Source: Lachnospiraceae bacterium (lineage in GTDB: Bacteria; Bacillota; Clostridia; Lachnospirales; Lachnospiraceae). Taken from it: a DNA stretch of 64,000 bases. The stretch covers positions 1 through 64,000 of the forward strand of contig JAFUFI010000031.1 in assembly GCA_017469945.1 (NCBI GenBank), in the 5' to 3' direction. The position numbers and the translations under genes are program-made. Below the pieces are notes generated by a model. It was not told the DNA's origin and did not search any database. It worked only from the letters and a program-made list of their open reading frames with translations. Position 1 is the first letter of the stretch; each line of letters opens with the position of its first letter. Positions 58,783-62,563 of this stretch are shown one piece after another.

Positions 58783-58835
58783 TTTGTCTGTCCCAACAAA
58801 AGCCGGATGAATTTTATGTAAGTAAGGTGCTCAAA

Positions 58836-59610
58836 ATGAGAAAAAAAGAGGAGAAGGATTTGATAAAGTTTTTGGTGTTCACGGATTTACACTACGACTA
58901 TGCAACACATGGTGATGAACGTATCCGGCAGATTTTGGGCAGAGCAAAGAGTGAAGAAGTGGACTTTATTGTATCTCTGGGAGATATCACAGCCCCAATT
59001 GTGCAGTATAGTCATGTGCTCGAAAAGGTGAGAAATTCCGGCTTACCCTTGTATCAAGTGCTTGGAAACCATGATGTTAAAGTGGATTTGCATCAGACGA
59101 TGGAATTCCTGGGGCTTCACGAACCAATTCCACAATCGTGCTGTTCGCAATGGGCAGGAAGTCTTTGATCTGATTAAAGGGAAAAACATTCTGCTTTGCA
59201 TGAATGGGCATGATCATGGGGATGATTTTAAGGTGGTCGATCAGGTGCCGTTCTATACGTTAAATTCTGCTTACGGACCTTGGATCGGTTTCCCAAATGG
59301 TGATGCTGATTTGGTGCAAAAATATGAATACCTCCACGGTTATGTGCCTTATGACAGAGCACTTAGTGCAGTAGTAACGATAGAAAGTGACGCCAATCGA
59401 AAACATTCAGGTGTGATCCGAATTGAAGGTATGCAGGGTAATTATGAGTCAGTGACACCGGCGGAACTTGGCCTTGTGGATCCTTATTGGAATGGCGTTT
59501 CTGTAGAACCTAGAGCAAGTTCTTTTGTCATATCTTTTGATAGTATGAAGAAAGAGATAAAAGATTCAATTGATGAACAAAAGGAGATGCCGAGGATTAA
59601 TATAGGATAA
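58836..59610 (+). pseudogene. Broken calcineurin-like metallophosphoesterase
   Basis: The 5' part (58836-59130) encodes the start of a phosphoesterase: FLVFTDLHYDY (metal-binding DxH), IVSLGDIT (GD) and LGNHD. The reading then shifts: from about 59120 the continuing frame is the one at 59062-59610 with NRAVRNGQEVFDLIKG, the GHDHG motif and an intact C-terminus. Between LGNHD and GHDHG the middle region with the usual substrate-proximal histidines is missing, so both a deletion and a frame change occurred at about 59110-59135. An unusual short protein from a sequence error is less likely because residues are absent, not just shifted. Ribosome binding site AAGGTG remains at 58824. Confidence 0.75.
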
Positions 59611-59622
59611 AGGATAACAAAT
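59592..59622 (+). repeat. 31-bp direct repeat, left copy
   Basis: 31 bp (GAGGATTAATATAGGATAAAGG continues to AACAAAT; given here in two parts of the same run: GAGGATTAATATAGG and ATAAAGGATAACAAAT). Identical at 30 of 31 positions to 61614-61644. It overlaps the 3' end of the broken phosphoesterase. Confidence 0.9.
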
Positions 59623-59731: not shown

Positions 59732-60280
59732 ATGGTTATTACTAAAAACAACATGCAAAAACTTTTAAAATCCCAGCAGGGAGAACTTAATGGTGTGGAA
59801 ACATACCTTAGAATGGCTGAATTGGTGCATAATGAATCTGATGCAAAAACGTTTAGAGCGCTTGCTGCAGATGAAGGCCGACATGCTAACGTAATCAAAC
59901 AGTACACGGGTAAGGTACTGAAACCTAAGAAAACCCAGGCATTGCTTGTAACTACTTTATATCGGATCCTCGGAAAGAGAATCCTGTATCCGCTGATAGC
60001 AATTGGCGAGTATATTGCTATTCCCAAATATAAGAAAATGATGACAGAGTTTCCGGAATTAGAGTCGGTTAAGAACGATGAAAAGCGCCATGGTGATACA
60101 ATGCTGGCTCTCTGGAAAAATGGCGAGTATGAAGATAAACCTTTGTTACCGGTATTATTCTTCGCAGTAATAGTCATGATCGTTCTCTGGAAACTGGCAT
60201 CGTTTTTTGTTCGCGACAAAAATGACCCGGGACGGAGTCACGGGGGGCTCTGGGGTCATCGTGAAAAGGCGTTGACCTGA
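59732..60280 (+). CDS. Ferritin-like diiron protein with C-terminal membrane helix
   Basis: 182 residues. Four-helix ferritin/rubrerythrin-like domain (about 5-130) with ligands in QQGELNGVETYLRMAE, ADEGRHANVI and NDEKRHGDTM. Relatives of about 140 residues end near there; this one continues with a membrane helix (about 143-163) and a charged, Gly-rich tail. The tail after FFVRD is encoded by a GC-rich palindrome (60223-60258), so the original C-terminus has probably been replaced. Likely role: iron or peroxide handling at the membrane (inference). AAGAGGTAGACAACT precedes the start. Its stop codon overlaps the -35 box of the next promoter. Confidence 0.8.
   Translation: MVITKNNMQKLLKSQQGELNGVETYLRMAELVHNESDAKTFRALAADEGRHANVIKQYTGKVLKPKKTQALLVTTLYRILGKRILYPLIAIGEYIAIPKYKKMMTEFPELESVKNDEKRHGDTMLALWKNGEYEDKPLLPVLFFAVIVMIVLWKLASFFVRDKNDPGRSHGGLWGHREKALT
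60223..60258 (+). repeat. Diverged palindromic repeat inside the ferritin-like gene
   Basis: 36-bp palindrome with ends TGACCC and GGGTCA and a core GGGACGGAGTCACGGGGGG. It is related, in reverse orientation, to the repeats at 190 and 8921-9248 (shared TGACCC...GGGACGG). It encodes the last residues of the ferritin-like protein. Confidence 0.65.
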
Positions 60281-60300
60281 CAAATTAAATGTGTTAATAT
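60272..60300 (+). promoter_or_regulatory. Sigma-A promoter of the rsgA leader
   Basis: TTGACC (60272-60277), 17-nt spacer, TAATAT (60295-60300). Strong match. The predicted transcript starts near 60307, giving a leader of about 255 nt before rsgA. Confidence 0.85.
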
Positions 60301-60331
60301 GTGCACAGTTGTGAAATATTTAAAAGAAAGT

Positions 60332-60393
60332 GAGGTAATCATAATGTGTGTTGTAAGAATTGAGATTGTAATTGTAAATAGTATGATGACCTC
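60332..60393 (+). promoter_or_regulatory. Leader helix able to hide the leader-peptide ribosome binding site
   Basis: GAGGTAATCAT at 60332-60342 (the Shine-Dalgarno of the leader peptide) can pair with ATGATGACCTC at 60383-60393 near the end of the peptide's own coding sequence: 10 of 11 positions complementary. Ribosome position on the short ORF would decide whether this helix forms, as in translation-dependent attenuators. Confidence 0.6.
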
Positions 60394-60409
60394 GGTTTCT
60401 GCCCTTTAA
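60344..60409 (+). CDS. 21-codon leader peptide upstream of rsgA
   Basis: ATG at 60344, 9 nt after GTGAGG; encodes MCVVRIEIVIVNSMM plus TSVSAL, then TAA. Too short for an enzyme and placed between a strong promoter and a terminator, the classic layout of an attenuation leader. The peptide is Val/Ile-rich, which may reflect ribosome stalling or amino-acid sensing; the inducing signal is unknown. Confidence 0.65.
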   Translation: MCVVRIEIVIVNSMMTSVSAL

Positions 60410-60440
60410 TCTATATAGGGATATTTTGTTTTGGACTTTG

Positions 60441-60470
60441 ACCGTGGCTTATATGTCACGGTTTTTCTTT
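60441..60470 (+). terminator. Attenuator terminator in the rsgA leader
   Basis: Stem ACCGTG/CACGGT (60441-60446 and 60457-60462) with a 10-nt loop, followed by TTTTCTTTT. It lies before the rsgA ribosome binding site (AGGAGA at 60551), so it must be read through for rsgA to be expressed from the leader promoter. Confidence 0.8.
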
Positions 60471-60564
60471 TGCCCTTTTCGGGTTGTTTTCCGTTATAGA
60501 AGGTCTCCATACTATCAGAGAAATTGTGTATTGATCATGTAGAATGTAAAAGGAGACAATAGAG

Positions 60565-61566
60565 TTGAATAATATCATTATTGGAAATGAAACAAAAGAA
60601 GAGAAAATAGGCAGAATTTCGGAAGTAAACAAAAACAGCTTTAAGATTTTGTTCGAGGGAAAAGAGATACCGGCAAAACTAAAAGGAAATTTTTATGAAA
60701 AAGATGCTGAAAAACTTCCGGTTGTTGGCGACTATGTGAGATTTTTGTATAATGAACAGGGGGATTCTTTGATCCTCTCAGTCTGTGAGAGACATAGTTT
60801 TTTGCAAAGGCCTGATCAGGCCAAGACCGGGGTAATGCAATATATGGCATCCAATGTGGATTACCTTTTTATTGTCACATCCCTGAACGAAGACTACAAC
60901 TATAATCGTATTGCGAGATATGTAAGCATTGCCATTAAGGGCGGAGCAGATCCTGTTGTGATCCTTACAAAATCCGATCTTTGCAGTAATCCCGGAAGGT
61001 ATGTGCGTGAAGTTGAGCAGATTTCAGATAAAGTGAGTGTTCATGTGATCTCTGCACTCTATGATATCGGCCTTGATGAACTGAAAAAATATATGACACC
61101 GGGAACGACCATATGTCTTATGGGCTCATCAGGTGCGGGAAAATCAACGCTGATCAATTCAATTACCGGCGAAGAGACAATGAAGACATCCGGGATCAGA
61201 GAAGATGATGACAAAGGAAGGCACACTACCACATACAGGAAGCTGATCGAGCTTCCCGGCGGTGTCACTATCATTGATACTCCCGGTATGCGTGAAGTCG
61301 GCATGGCAGATGTACAGGATGGGATCGATGAAACCTTTTCGGATATTGTGGAACTTATGAGCAGATGCCGGTTCAGTAATTGCAGGCACGATACGGAGCC
61401 GGGGTGTGCGATAAAGGCGGCTATTGAAAGCGGAGAATTATCTGCAAAGAGATATGAACTTTATATAAATCTTGGCAGGGAGAATACCAACAACTATGCC
61501 AAGAAAAAAGAGATATCCAAGTGGCATAAAGCATATAAAAAGATGAATAAGAGGAATCTTGAATGA
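60565..61566 (+). CDS. rsgA: Ribosome small subunit-dependent GTPase A, accessory-region copy
   Basis: 333 residues. N-terminal OB-fold (KIGRISEVNKNSFKILFEGK, VVGDYVRF), circularly permuted GTPase with G4 LTKSDL, G1 GSSGAGKSTLINSITG, G3 DTPGMREVG, and C-terminal zinc knuckle (CRFSNCRHDTEPGC). TTG start at 60565 with AAAAGGAGACAAT upstream. RsgA acts in 30S maturation. Sitting in an accessory region behind an attenuation leader suggests an inducible second copy; whether another rsgA exists elsewhere cannot be seen. Confidence 0.93.
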   Translation: MNNIIIGNETKEEKIGRISEVNKNSFKILFEGKEIPAKLKGNFYEKDAEKLPVVGDYVRFLYNEQGDSLILSVCERHSFLQRPDQAKTGVMQYMASNVDYLFIVTSLNEDYNYNRIARYVSIAIKGGADPVVILTKSDLCSNPGRYVREVEQISDKVSVHVISALYDIGLDELKKYMTPGTTICLMGSSGAGKSTLINSITGEETMKTSGIREDDDKGRHTTTYRKLIELPGGVTIIDTPGMREVGMADVQDGIDETFSDIVELMSRCRFSNCRHDTEPGCAIKAAIESGELSAKRYELYINLGRENTNNYAKKKEISKWHKAYKKMNKRNLE

Positions 61567-61613
61567 ACTATTGAAAACTCCTATACGGAATTTATGAAGA
61601 TTCAATTGATGCA

Positions 61614-61644
61614 GAGGATTATTATAGGATAAAGGATAACAAAT
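61614..61644 (+). repeat. 31-bp direct repeat, right copy
   Basis: Matches 59592-59622 at 30 of 31 positions. The homologous stretch is longer on the left here (from about 61597), where a frame reads EDSIDAEDYYRIKDNK and stops at a TGA overlapping the GNAT start (ATGA). This looks like the 3' end of a lost gene formerly coupled to the GNAT gene. Confidence 0.9.
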
Positions 61645-62563
61645 GAAAGAATTGAGAACAAAGCAATTTCAAATACTGACAGATATCAATCTCGTATGGG
61701 ATTTCCTGACGGATATCTATGATCGTGAAAATGGTAGCGGAGTCGCTGCACCTTTCTTTGAACATGCGATCATGGCATCATGGATGGACAATTCGTATTC
61801 TTATCTGAACCGATTCTGGTTTGATGGAAATCTGGTCGTGGCGTTTGTTTTCTACGAAGCTCCTACGACTGATATATACTTCAGTGTGCGTAAAGGATAT
61901 GAATATCTTGCGGATGAACTGATAGGCTATGCCATGACTACCATGCCGAATTGGGATGATGCTCAGCAGTTAGTTCTGTTTAATGGTCAGGAATATCTTA
62001 TGGAAGCCGCAAAGAAGCGTGGATTTAATAAAGTATTTGAATATGAGGACAGGTTCTTTGATTTCAAAAACGAGCTGAATTACGAATTGCCGGAGGGGTA
62101 CCACTTTGTTGAACCTGAAGACATAGATCCCGTAAAGATCGGAAAACTATGTTGGTACGGGTTTGATCATGGGGATAAAGGAGAGTTTGTAAACTGGGAC
62201 AAACAGGATACATCCTTTGACTGGACTCCGGAAAAATCCTATAAAGATTGTCTTGGCGACATCATGGCACCACTCCCGCATGCAACACATGAATATGATG
62301 TTATCATAGCCGATGAGCAGGACGAATATGTCTGCTTTTCAGGAATGTGGTGGGTGCCGGAGAACCATCTGGCATATATGGAACCTCTCTGTACTGCACC
62401 TGAACATAGGAGAAAAGGCCTTGCTGCGGCGGCATTAACCGTCCATTACCGCAGGATGAAAGCGCTTGGGGCGACACATATGACAGGCGGAGGTGATCCT
62501 TTCTATGAGAAAATCGGATATGGAAAGGGATTGCACTGGAGCTTTTGGAAAAGGGAAAAGTGA
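61643..62563 (+). CDS. GNAT family N-acetyltransferase, two-domain
   Basis: 306 residues. The N-terminal half looks like a diverged GNAT domain; the C-terminal half (about 145-306) carries the acetyl-CoA loop in EHRRKGLAAAAL and a TGGGDPFYEKIGY segment. Substrate unknown; similar proteins occur in small accessory clusters of Lachnospiraceae. GGATAAAGGATAACAA binding site comes from the direct repeat. Followed after 20 nt by a metallophosphoesterase gene. Confidence 0.85.
   Translation: MKELRTKQFQILTDINLVWDFLTDIYDRENGSGVAAPFFEHAIMASWMDNSYSYLNRFWFDGNLVVAFVFYEAPTTDIYFSVRKGYEYLADELIGYAMTTMPNWDDAQQLVLFNGQEYLMEAAKKRGFNKVFEYEDRFFDFKNELNYELPEGYHFVEPEDIDPVKIGKLCWYGFDHGDKGEFVNWDKQDTSFDWTPEKSYKDCLGDIMAPLPHATHEYDVIIADEQDEYVCFSGMWWVPENHLAYMEPLCTAPEHRRKGLAAAALTVHYRRMKALGATHMTGGGDPFYEKIGYGKGLHWSFWKREK

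Follow-up and report, generated by a model that had tools for sequence, protein, structure and literature searches.

Why should a bacterium keep a second copy of the ribosome-assembly GTPase RsgA behind a promoter, a short open reading frame (ORF) and a transcription terminator? The question is raised by a locus in 64,000 nucleotides of DNA from a Lachnospiraceae bacterium (assembly GCA_017469945.1, contig JAFUFI010000031.1, positions 1 to 64,000 of the forward strand; hereafter, the window), where an accessory rsgA gene is preceded by such a leader. An earlier note on this DNA had described the promoter, the short ORF with its Shine-Dalgarno sequence (SD), the complementarity between this SD and the ORF, and a hairpin followed by a T run; all of these are present (Table 1). 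The SD of the leader ORF is GTGAGGT, and GAGGTAATCAT (60332-60342) is complementary to ATGATGACCTC (60383-60393) at 10 of 11 positions. Absent from that description is a conserved box 3' of the terminator, at 60502-60515, that has two alternative pairings. Along the leader RNA, we number the segments 1 (leader SD), 2a (codons 12-14), 2b (codons 15-19), T (terminator), 3 (anti-SD box) and 4 (main-gene SD). Comparison of this leader with its relatives suggests that a ribosome-sensing attenuator, probably induced by translation inhibitors, controls this paralogous RsgA in an arrangement similar to that of HflXr.

Within the window, scans yielded 5 promoter-like sites, with 6.1 expected, and 3 terminator-like sites, with 1.3 expected, and the leader folds only mildly better than its shuffled versions (z -1.95). 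Because the window scans do not exceed chance, the case for the leader is not built on them; rather, the arrangement is not due to chance because it is conserved in relatives. By our reading of the search results, the accessory RsgA is present in 18 of the 31 genomes of the genus, and the leader lies upstream of the gene at all 17 loci with upstream DNA, that is, in 17 of these 18 genomes. The earlier note had named a lack of conservation in relatives as a refuting outcome, and the leader element is conserved. From 85 aligned leaders we built a covariance model (R1). Its scores are 113-151 bits at these 17 loci, many of which also served to train it, and do not exceed 21.3 bits at 13 housekeeping rsgA loci (L002, L020-L031), where the leader is absent. 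A pattern scan of contigs produced at least 118 stretches; after removal of three chance hits from other phyla with no matching leader (L033, L092, L098), four loci without a placeable terminator, and duplicates, at least 101 unique leader loci remained besides the 17 of the genus, nearly all from Lachnospiraceae and many from the rumen or gut. A promoter scoring at least 10 out of 12 (0.5 of which is counted for a 17-nt spacer) is found upstream of the leader in 66 of 117 unique loci, compared with 23 of 585 shuffles, and 53 of these 66 loci carry the extended TG; the promoter in the window itself scores 9.5 on this scale. The length of 21 codons is retained in 89 of 109 distinct leaders.

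Outside this set, a class-wide search matched the leader in 15 of 391 genomes at E <= 1e-4, but eight of these matches, outside the family, looked by eye like terminators or noise without a leader. There was no match in the viral contigs searched for the leader, nor in plasmids searched by blastn with both of the leader classes described here; one Roseburia plasmid encodes an RsgA with 63.7% identity. A search of Rfam with the leader element gave no match at the gathering score, and no description of the combination of leader and accessory RsgA was found in open-licence PubMed Central papers. Thus, we consider the conserved dual attenuator in front of the accessory RsgA to be real and undescribed in the literature searched.

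The dual logic emerges from covariation. The terminator is supported by compensated pairs, and GTCTCC follows it in 82 of 120 loci. Between 2a and this box 3, the mean number of Watson-Crick pairs is 5.42 out of 8, against 4.71 (standard deviation 0.105) after shuffling, with none of 5000 shuffles as high (50 distinct combinations), and the third position of 2a forms A-T, C-G, G-C and T-A combinations with its partner. An unsupervised mutual-information scan, run on 113 sequences, places the top pair within the terminator (z 15.8) and the second one at 2a:box 3 (z 10.6), flanked by pairs with z of 6.8 and 6.1 in antiparallel order; given that some non-pairing columns reach z of 6-7, we used only the helix pattern. 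For the alternative pairing, box 3 matches the SD of its own locus over 5.33 nt and swapped ones over 4.85 nt (maximum in 500 shuffles, 5.11; 113 loci), and compensated variants occur. The main-gene SD is of the GGAGA type in 70 of 79 loci with the box, in 14 of 36 without it, and in 94 of 204 background ORFs. Together, these patterns suggest that box 3 has two alternative partners, codons 12-14 of the leader and the SD of rsgA, in the four-segment logic of the erm and vmlR leaders, with a terminator in the middle.

Helix 1:2b is nearly invariant, and both of its arms are fixed by the search pattern, so that its support comes from 27 divergent hits, in which the leader SD region shows complementarity over 7.07 nt with its own leader and over 6.45 nt with those of others (1 of 2000 shuffles as high); one locus (L173) carries a compensated GAGGC/GCCTC in this helix. 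Segment 2b also matches the terminator 5' arm, CCTCGGT with ACCGTGG, with one mismatch. The CCGTGG of this arm is almost invariant, whereas its 3' partner varies, which fits, but does not prove, the existence of a second pairing partner besides the 3' arm.

Folding of 73 loci that have all parts, with or without a ribosome held on the leader, is in line with these alternatives. Without a ribosome, helix 1:2b forms at 0.89 and the main-gene SD is unpaired at 0.07; with a ribosome at codon 1 or 5, helix 2a:3 reaches 0.61-0.64 and the main-gene SD is unpaired at 0.51-0.54, a value that drops to 0.21, 0.11 and 0.05 with the ribosome at codon 8, codon 10 and the stop codon, respectively. At the window locus, the rsgA SD goes from 0.03 unpaired to 0.79-0.83 with an early ribosome and falls to 0.13 with the ribosome at codon 8. 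Replacement of 2a with that of another locus lowers the SD opening from 0.54 to 0.35, the native segment giving the higher value in 63 of 75 cases (Wilcoxon p 2.7e-9). Since the SD opens only with a ribosome at about codons 1-5, the device appears to read a ribosome held on the first codons. In RNA that ends at the terminator 5' arm, 2b pairs with this arm at 0.83-0.98.

These comparisons also separate the leader element, which is kept in relatives, from the encoded peptide, which is not what is conserved. In the 109 distinct leaders, codons 7-11 show as little change at their wobble bases as at the other bases, and the residues vary; valine is encoded by GTA in 66 of 68 cases, compared with 20% in the background, and glutamate by GAG in 51 of 58, compared with 44%, although the sequences compared are related, which makes p-values nominal. 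It is the RNA of the leader, rather than its peptide, that is under constraint. A drug-arrest peptide was considered and dropped, the conserved-looking EIVTE and TSV stretches going together with fixed nucleotides. The RLR motif is absent from the window leader and is no feature of the 109 leaders. In the window, codons 7-11 (60362-60376) form a stretch of nucleotides, wobble bases included, that are fixed in relatives and have no known pairing partner.

In the genus, the leader precedes RsgA alone at 11 of 17 loci and a GNAT-RsgA fusion at 6. Among the 101 further loci, the first gene is RsgA in 39 and a GNAT-RsgA fusion, with RsgA as the C-terminal part, in 45; in 4, RsgA comes second, behind a gene for an RNHCP-domain protein (L041, L147) or a methyltransferase-fold protein (L107, L109); a lone GNAT follows in 3 (L058, L145, L111) and an ABC-F protein in 1 (L124), and the remaining 9 end at a contig or locus edge before a gene can be read. 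The L124 protein scores 462.8 bits against NF000355 (ribosomal protection-like ABC-F; NCBIfam cut-off 380), and its resemblance to RsgA comes down to the shared P-loop. An ABC-F-like gene that follows the fusion in L010 scores 253.5 bits, below the NF000355 cut-off. The fused GNATs are of two different types (L007, L010). When R1 was run against 397 family genomes, 62 had matches at E <= 0.01 and 33 at E <= 1e-7. We inspected 50 loci (L150-L199), some of the weakest of which were judged by eye to be noise and were not counted (for example, L183, L188-L190, L196, L198, L199). Of the 50, 20 have RsgA behind the leader (phmmer); GNAT genes were recognized by eye in L166, L174 and L197, with that in L166 confirmed; and all 11 scanned exporter candidates carry ABC exporter domains, none of them above a named NCBIfam cut-off among the matches listed.

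Several single loci of this collection deserve mention in their own right. In L295, the gene behind a class I leader (as we call the leaders described so far; 93 bits) encodes a protein whose N-terminal domain is A/B hydrolase-like, and L296 is a decayed copy that retains the terminator and box 3 and in which the RsgA frame seems to lack the central GTPase part. An RNHCP-domain zinc protein shares an operon with the accessory RsgA in L041, L147 and L238; a literature search for RNHCP together with GTPase and ribosome found no paper. On a Lysinibacillus fusiformis plasmid (L248), an accessory-type rsgA is directly followed by the fosM fosfomycin-resistance gene. The rsgA neighbour in L243 and L244 had been taken by eye for an efflux pump, but the L243 copy matched no family when scanned.

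That the window gene is indeed accessory, as the earlier note had called it, is borne out by phylogeny. A second, housekeeping RsgA encoded in the same genome shares 32% identity with it, and in a tree of 65 rows the accessory and housekeeping forms are split with support of 100/100; the accessory RsgA does not group with single-copy RsgAs, as a housekeeping orthologue would. The 23 class I rows form one clade (100/98), around which lie 13 rows labelled class II, including L223, which has a weak class I leader match (31 bits) despite its label and is ambiguous. In 299 family genomes, accessory-type RsgAs score at least 144 bits and housekeeping ones at most 121 bits; by our reading, the accessory type is present in about 46 of these genomes. 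The window protein scores 150.1 bits against TIGR00157 (cut-off 100) and also matches PF03193, and its circularly permuted GTPase motifs and zinc motif are intact, both in an alignment to 6h4d and by the invariant columns of the family. Pfam RsgA_N scores 19.4, below its cut-off of 27; in the predicted model (mean pLDDT, the predicted local distance difference test score, 78.1), the N-terminal domain is rich in strands, at 13-73, and the best structural matches of the model, over the full length, are RsgA on the 30S subunit (7boi, 5no2). The N-terminal OB domain is thus present in the model.

More distant accessory rsgA genes carry a second class of leader, mostly of 9-14 codons, in which the SD, CGAAAGG, is complementary to a CCTTTCG further downstream, with a terminator after it (L219-L222, L224-L230, L233, L234). 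A model of this class (R2) gave 16 hits at E <= 1e-5 in 299 genomes; 14, including the 10 training loci, lie before accessory rsgA, and the others before genes for an ABC transporter ATPase (L265) and a GNAT (L282). The accessory rsgA loci L210, L212 and L218 had no R1 hit, and at several distant ones (for example, L231, L236, L237, L239, L242-L244) no leader was seen by eye. The presence of two unrelated attenuator classes on one enzyme family argues that the response to translation stress is a conserved property of this family.

In known translation attenuators of the ermC type, segments 1:2 and 3:4 alternate with 2:3, an arrest peptide is involved, and the product is an rRNA methyltransferase. 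The rsgA leader has the same pairing scheme but lacks a conserved peptide and has a terminator between segments 2 and 3. It combines a promoter, a translated-looking leader ORF with an SD, an intrinsic terminator and an apparent anti-antiterminator helix that includes the leader, all features of ribosome-mediated transcription attenuators, with a main-gene SD in a predicted helix and an alternative helix that would free it, as in translation attenuators of the erm and vmlR type. The published systems closest to it, as described in excerpts of the papers cited, differ in the details. Layered attenuator logic has been shown experimentally for vmlR of Bacillus subtilis, where a short ORF in an anti-antiterminator helix, a terminator and an SD-hiding helix are likewise all excluded by the induced fold, but the main gene encodes an ABC-F ATPase and the leader ORF, whose SD is unpaired, encodes Met-Ile-Asn (PMC9226507), unlike the 21-codon ORF of the rsgA leader with its own SD inside a helix. 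In Listeria monocytogenes, hflXr behind the leader rli80 is, like the putative unit described here, an accessory paralog of a ribosome-acting GTPase under a leader-peptide attenuator, with the housekeeping copy elsewhere; however, HflX belongs to another GTPase family, and the leader has 14 codons with an RLR motif and acts by transcription attenuation only (PMC6310831). The bmrB leader of B. subtilis controls the ABC exporter BmrCD, which resembles the exporters behind the sister leaders, by transcription attenuation in response to several ribosome-targeting drugs, but its terminator is inside a 53-codon leader, and no SD-sequestering helix is reported in the excerpt (PMC4191407). In the WblC/WhiB7 regulon of Streptomyces coelicolor, an RsgA paralog is WblC-activated, with its mRNA raised on tetracycline, although the control is by a transcription factor (PMC7157823). 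In the case of cplR, short ORFs are stalled by inhibitors with little context dependence (PMC10201436). The contacts of RsgA include the A site and h44, and the protein is able to dissociate 70S ribosomes (PMC6912228). Deletion of rsgA in Escherichia coli lowers the minimum inhibitory concentration of gentamicin, an effect not specific to ribosome drugs because that of cefotaxime falls too (PMC10295648).

The working scheme would be as follows. The RNA can form either helix 1:2b, the terminator and helix 3:4, or, in their place, helix 2a:3, leaving the rsgA SD free. If translation of the leader is fast, or does not occur so that 1:2b forms, transcription would stop at the terminator, and any RNA that reads through in this uninduced state would keep the rsgA SD shut. 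An inhibitor that holds a ribosome on the first leader codons would cover segment 1 and free segment 2; 2b would then pair with the 5' arm of the terminator while the 3' arm is still to be made, in kinetic antitermination, and 2a with box 3, so that rsgA is transcribed and translated. The induced RsgA or GNAT-RsgA would most likely have as its target 30S or 70S particles that are faulty or arrested by a drug, as proposed for HflXr on 70S. Induction by translation inhibitors appears likely, and a role of the accessory RsgA in resistance or recovery plausible. The likeness to leaders of ribosome-antibiotic resistance genes, already pointed out in the earlier note, gains strong support from the conservation, the covariation, the occurrence of the leader family before ABC-F and ABC exporter genes, and the separate RsgA clade. 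Several observations speak against this scheme. The terminator forms at equilibrium in every state folded, which leaves only a kinetic route to antitermination; no covariation is seen between 2b and the terminator because 2b is invariant, and helix 1:2b is beyond a covariation test in the pattern-selected set; 36-38 of about 118 loci have no recognizable GTCTCC box; and no conserved arrest peptide was found across the 109 leaders. Both the drug induction and the role in recovery or resistance are what we infer from these comparisons, and, to our knowledge, RsgA is an assembly factor, not a resistance protein.

A bolder version, which we entertain only tentatively, casts the accessory RsgA as a ribosome-protection factor of a new kind. 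Induced when ribosomes are held by a drug, it would work at the decoding centre of the 30S subunit, where its OB and GTPase domains would serve to dislodge or bypass inhibitors or to dismantle drug-arrested ribosomes; in the fusions, the GTPase would dock the acetyltransferase on the ribosome to modify the drug or the ribosome. Alternatively, the signal could be a shortage of ribosomes or of initiation, such as slow or faulty 30S initiation in the cold or upon assembly defects, with RsgA serving homeostasis and not a drug response. The opening of the SD with a ribosome held at codon 1 would suit such a sensor, as would the function of RsgA in maturation of the 30S subunit, where it touches the A site and h44, but the genes for ABC-F, GNAT and ABC exporter proteins that lie under sister leaders would do nothing to repair ribosome assembly, and the housekeeping rsgA lacks the leader at all 13 loci; we regard this explanation as unlikely.

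Much the same genes, ABC-F and exporters, stand in the way of an amino-acid attenuator, in which starvation for an early-coded residue would stall the ribosome and extra RsgA would fit ribosome assembly to nutrition. Ribosomes stalled by starvation at codons 1-6 would trigger the RNA device just as well; nevertheless, we reject this very improbable version because no residue is common to codons 2-6 in the 109 leaders (at codon 2, the commonest are Arg, in 28, and Ser, in 23). Least credible of all, and hardly worth entertaining, is a leader without any regulatory function, an untranslated region inherited and kept by descent only. The class I RsgAs do form one clade, so that much of the likeness among their leaders is shared ancestry, yet descent would not account for compensatory changes in two alternative helices, for the fixed wobble bases, for the element preceding non-homologous genes, or for the second, unrelated class of leader that other accessory RsgAs carry. 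A drug-responsive, ribosome-sensing attenuator remains the reading that we prefer.

In the window, the unit of leader and rsgA (Table 1) has a rubrerythrin-family gene (59732-60280) on one side and a GNAT-family gene (61643-62563) on the other. A 37-nt direct repeat (59586-59622 and 61608-61644; 95% identical, 2022 apart) brackets the rubrerythrin gene, the leader and rsgA, possibly a scar of insertion or duplication. At 58827-59610, there are overlapping frames of 113 and 182 aa, the first of which matches just the start of a metallophosphoesterase; this gene may be frameshifted or misassembled.

Table 1. Parts of the leader and accessory rsgA unit in the window
Feature	Position	Strand	Support
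Promoter: TTGACC (60272-60277), 17-nt spacer, TAATAT (60295-60300), extended -10 TG	60272..60300	+	position and TG kept in relatives
Segment 1, leader SD, GAAAGTGAGGT	60326..60336	+	complementary to segment 2b in 27 divergent hits
Leader ORF, ATG at 60344, 21 codons, MCVVRIEIVIVNSMMTSVSAL, stop 60407-60409	60344..60409	+	length kept in relatives
Segment 2a, ATAGTATG, around codons 12-14; partner, box 3	60378..60385	+	covariation
Segment 2b, GACCTCGGTTTC; partner, segment 1 or terminator 5' arm	60388..60399	+	
Intrinsic terminator, stem 60440-60463 and T run	60440..60470	+	scan, compensated pairs
Box 3, GGTCTCCATACTAT, anti-SD box; partner, 2a or rsgA SD	60502..60515	+	covariation
Segment 4, rsgA SD, GGAGAC	60552..60557	+	
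Accessory rsgA, 333 aa, TTG start	60565..61566	+	family and structure matches

If the preferred reading is true, a ribosome-assembly GTPase that has hitherto been seen as housekeeping would join ABC-F, Erm and HflXr among the inducible responses to ribosome-targeting drugs. The function of the widespread accessory RsgAs would become directly testable, and the GNAT-RsgA fusions would provide a concrete biochemical hypothesis. The undescribed RNA element could, moreover, be used to find more genes of this response in the abundant Lachnospiraceae of the rumen and gut.

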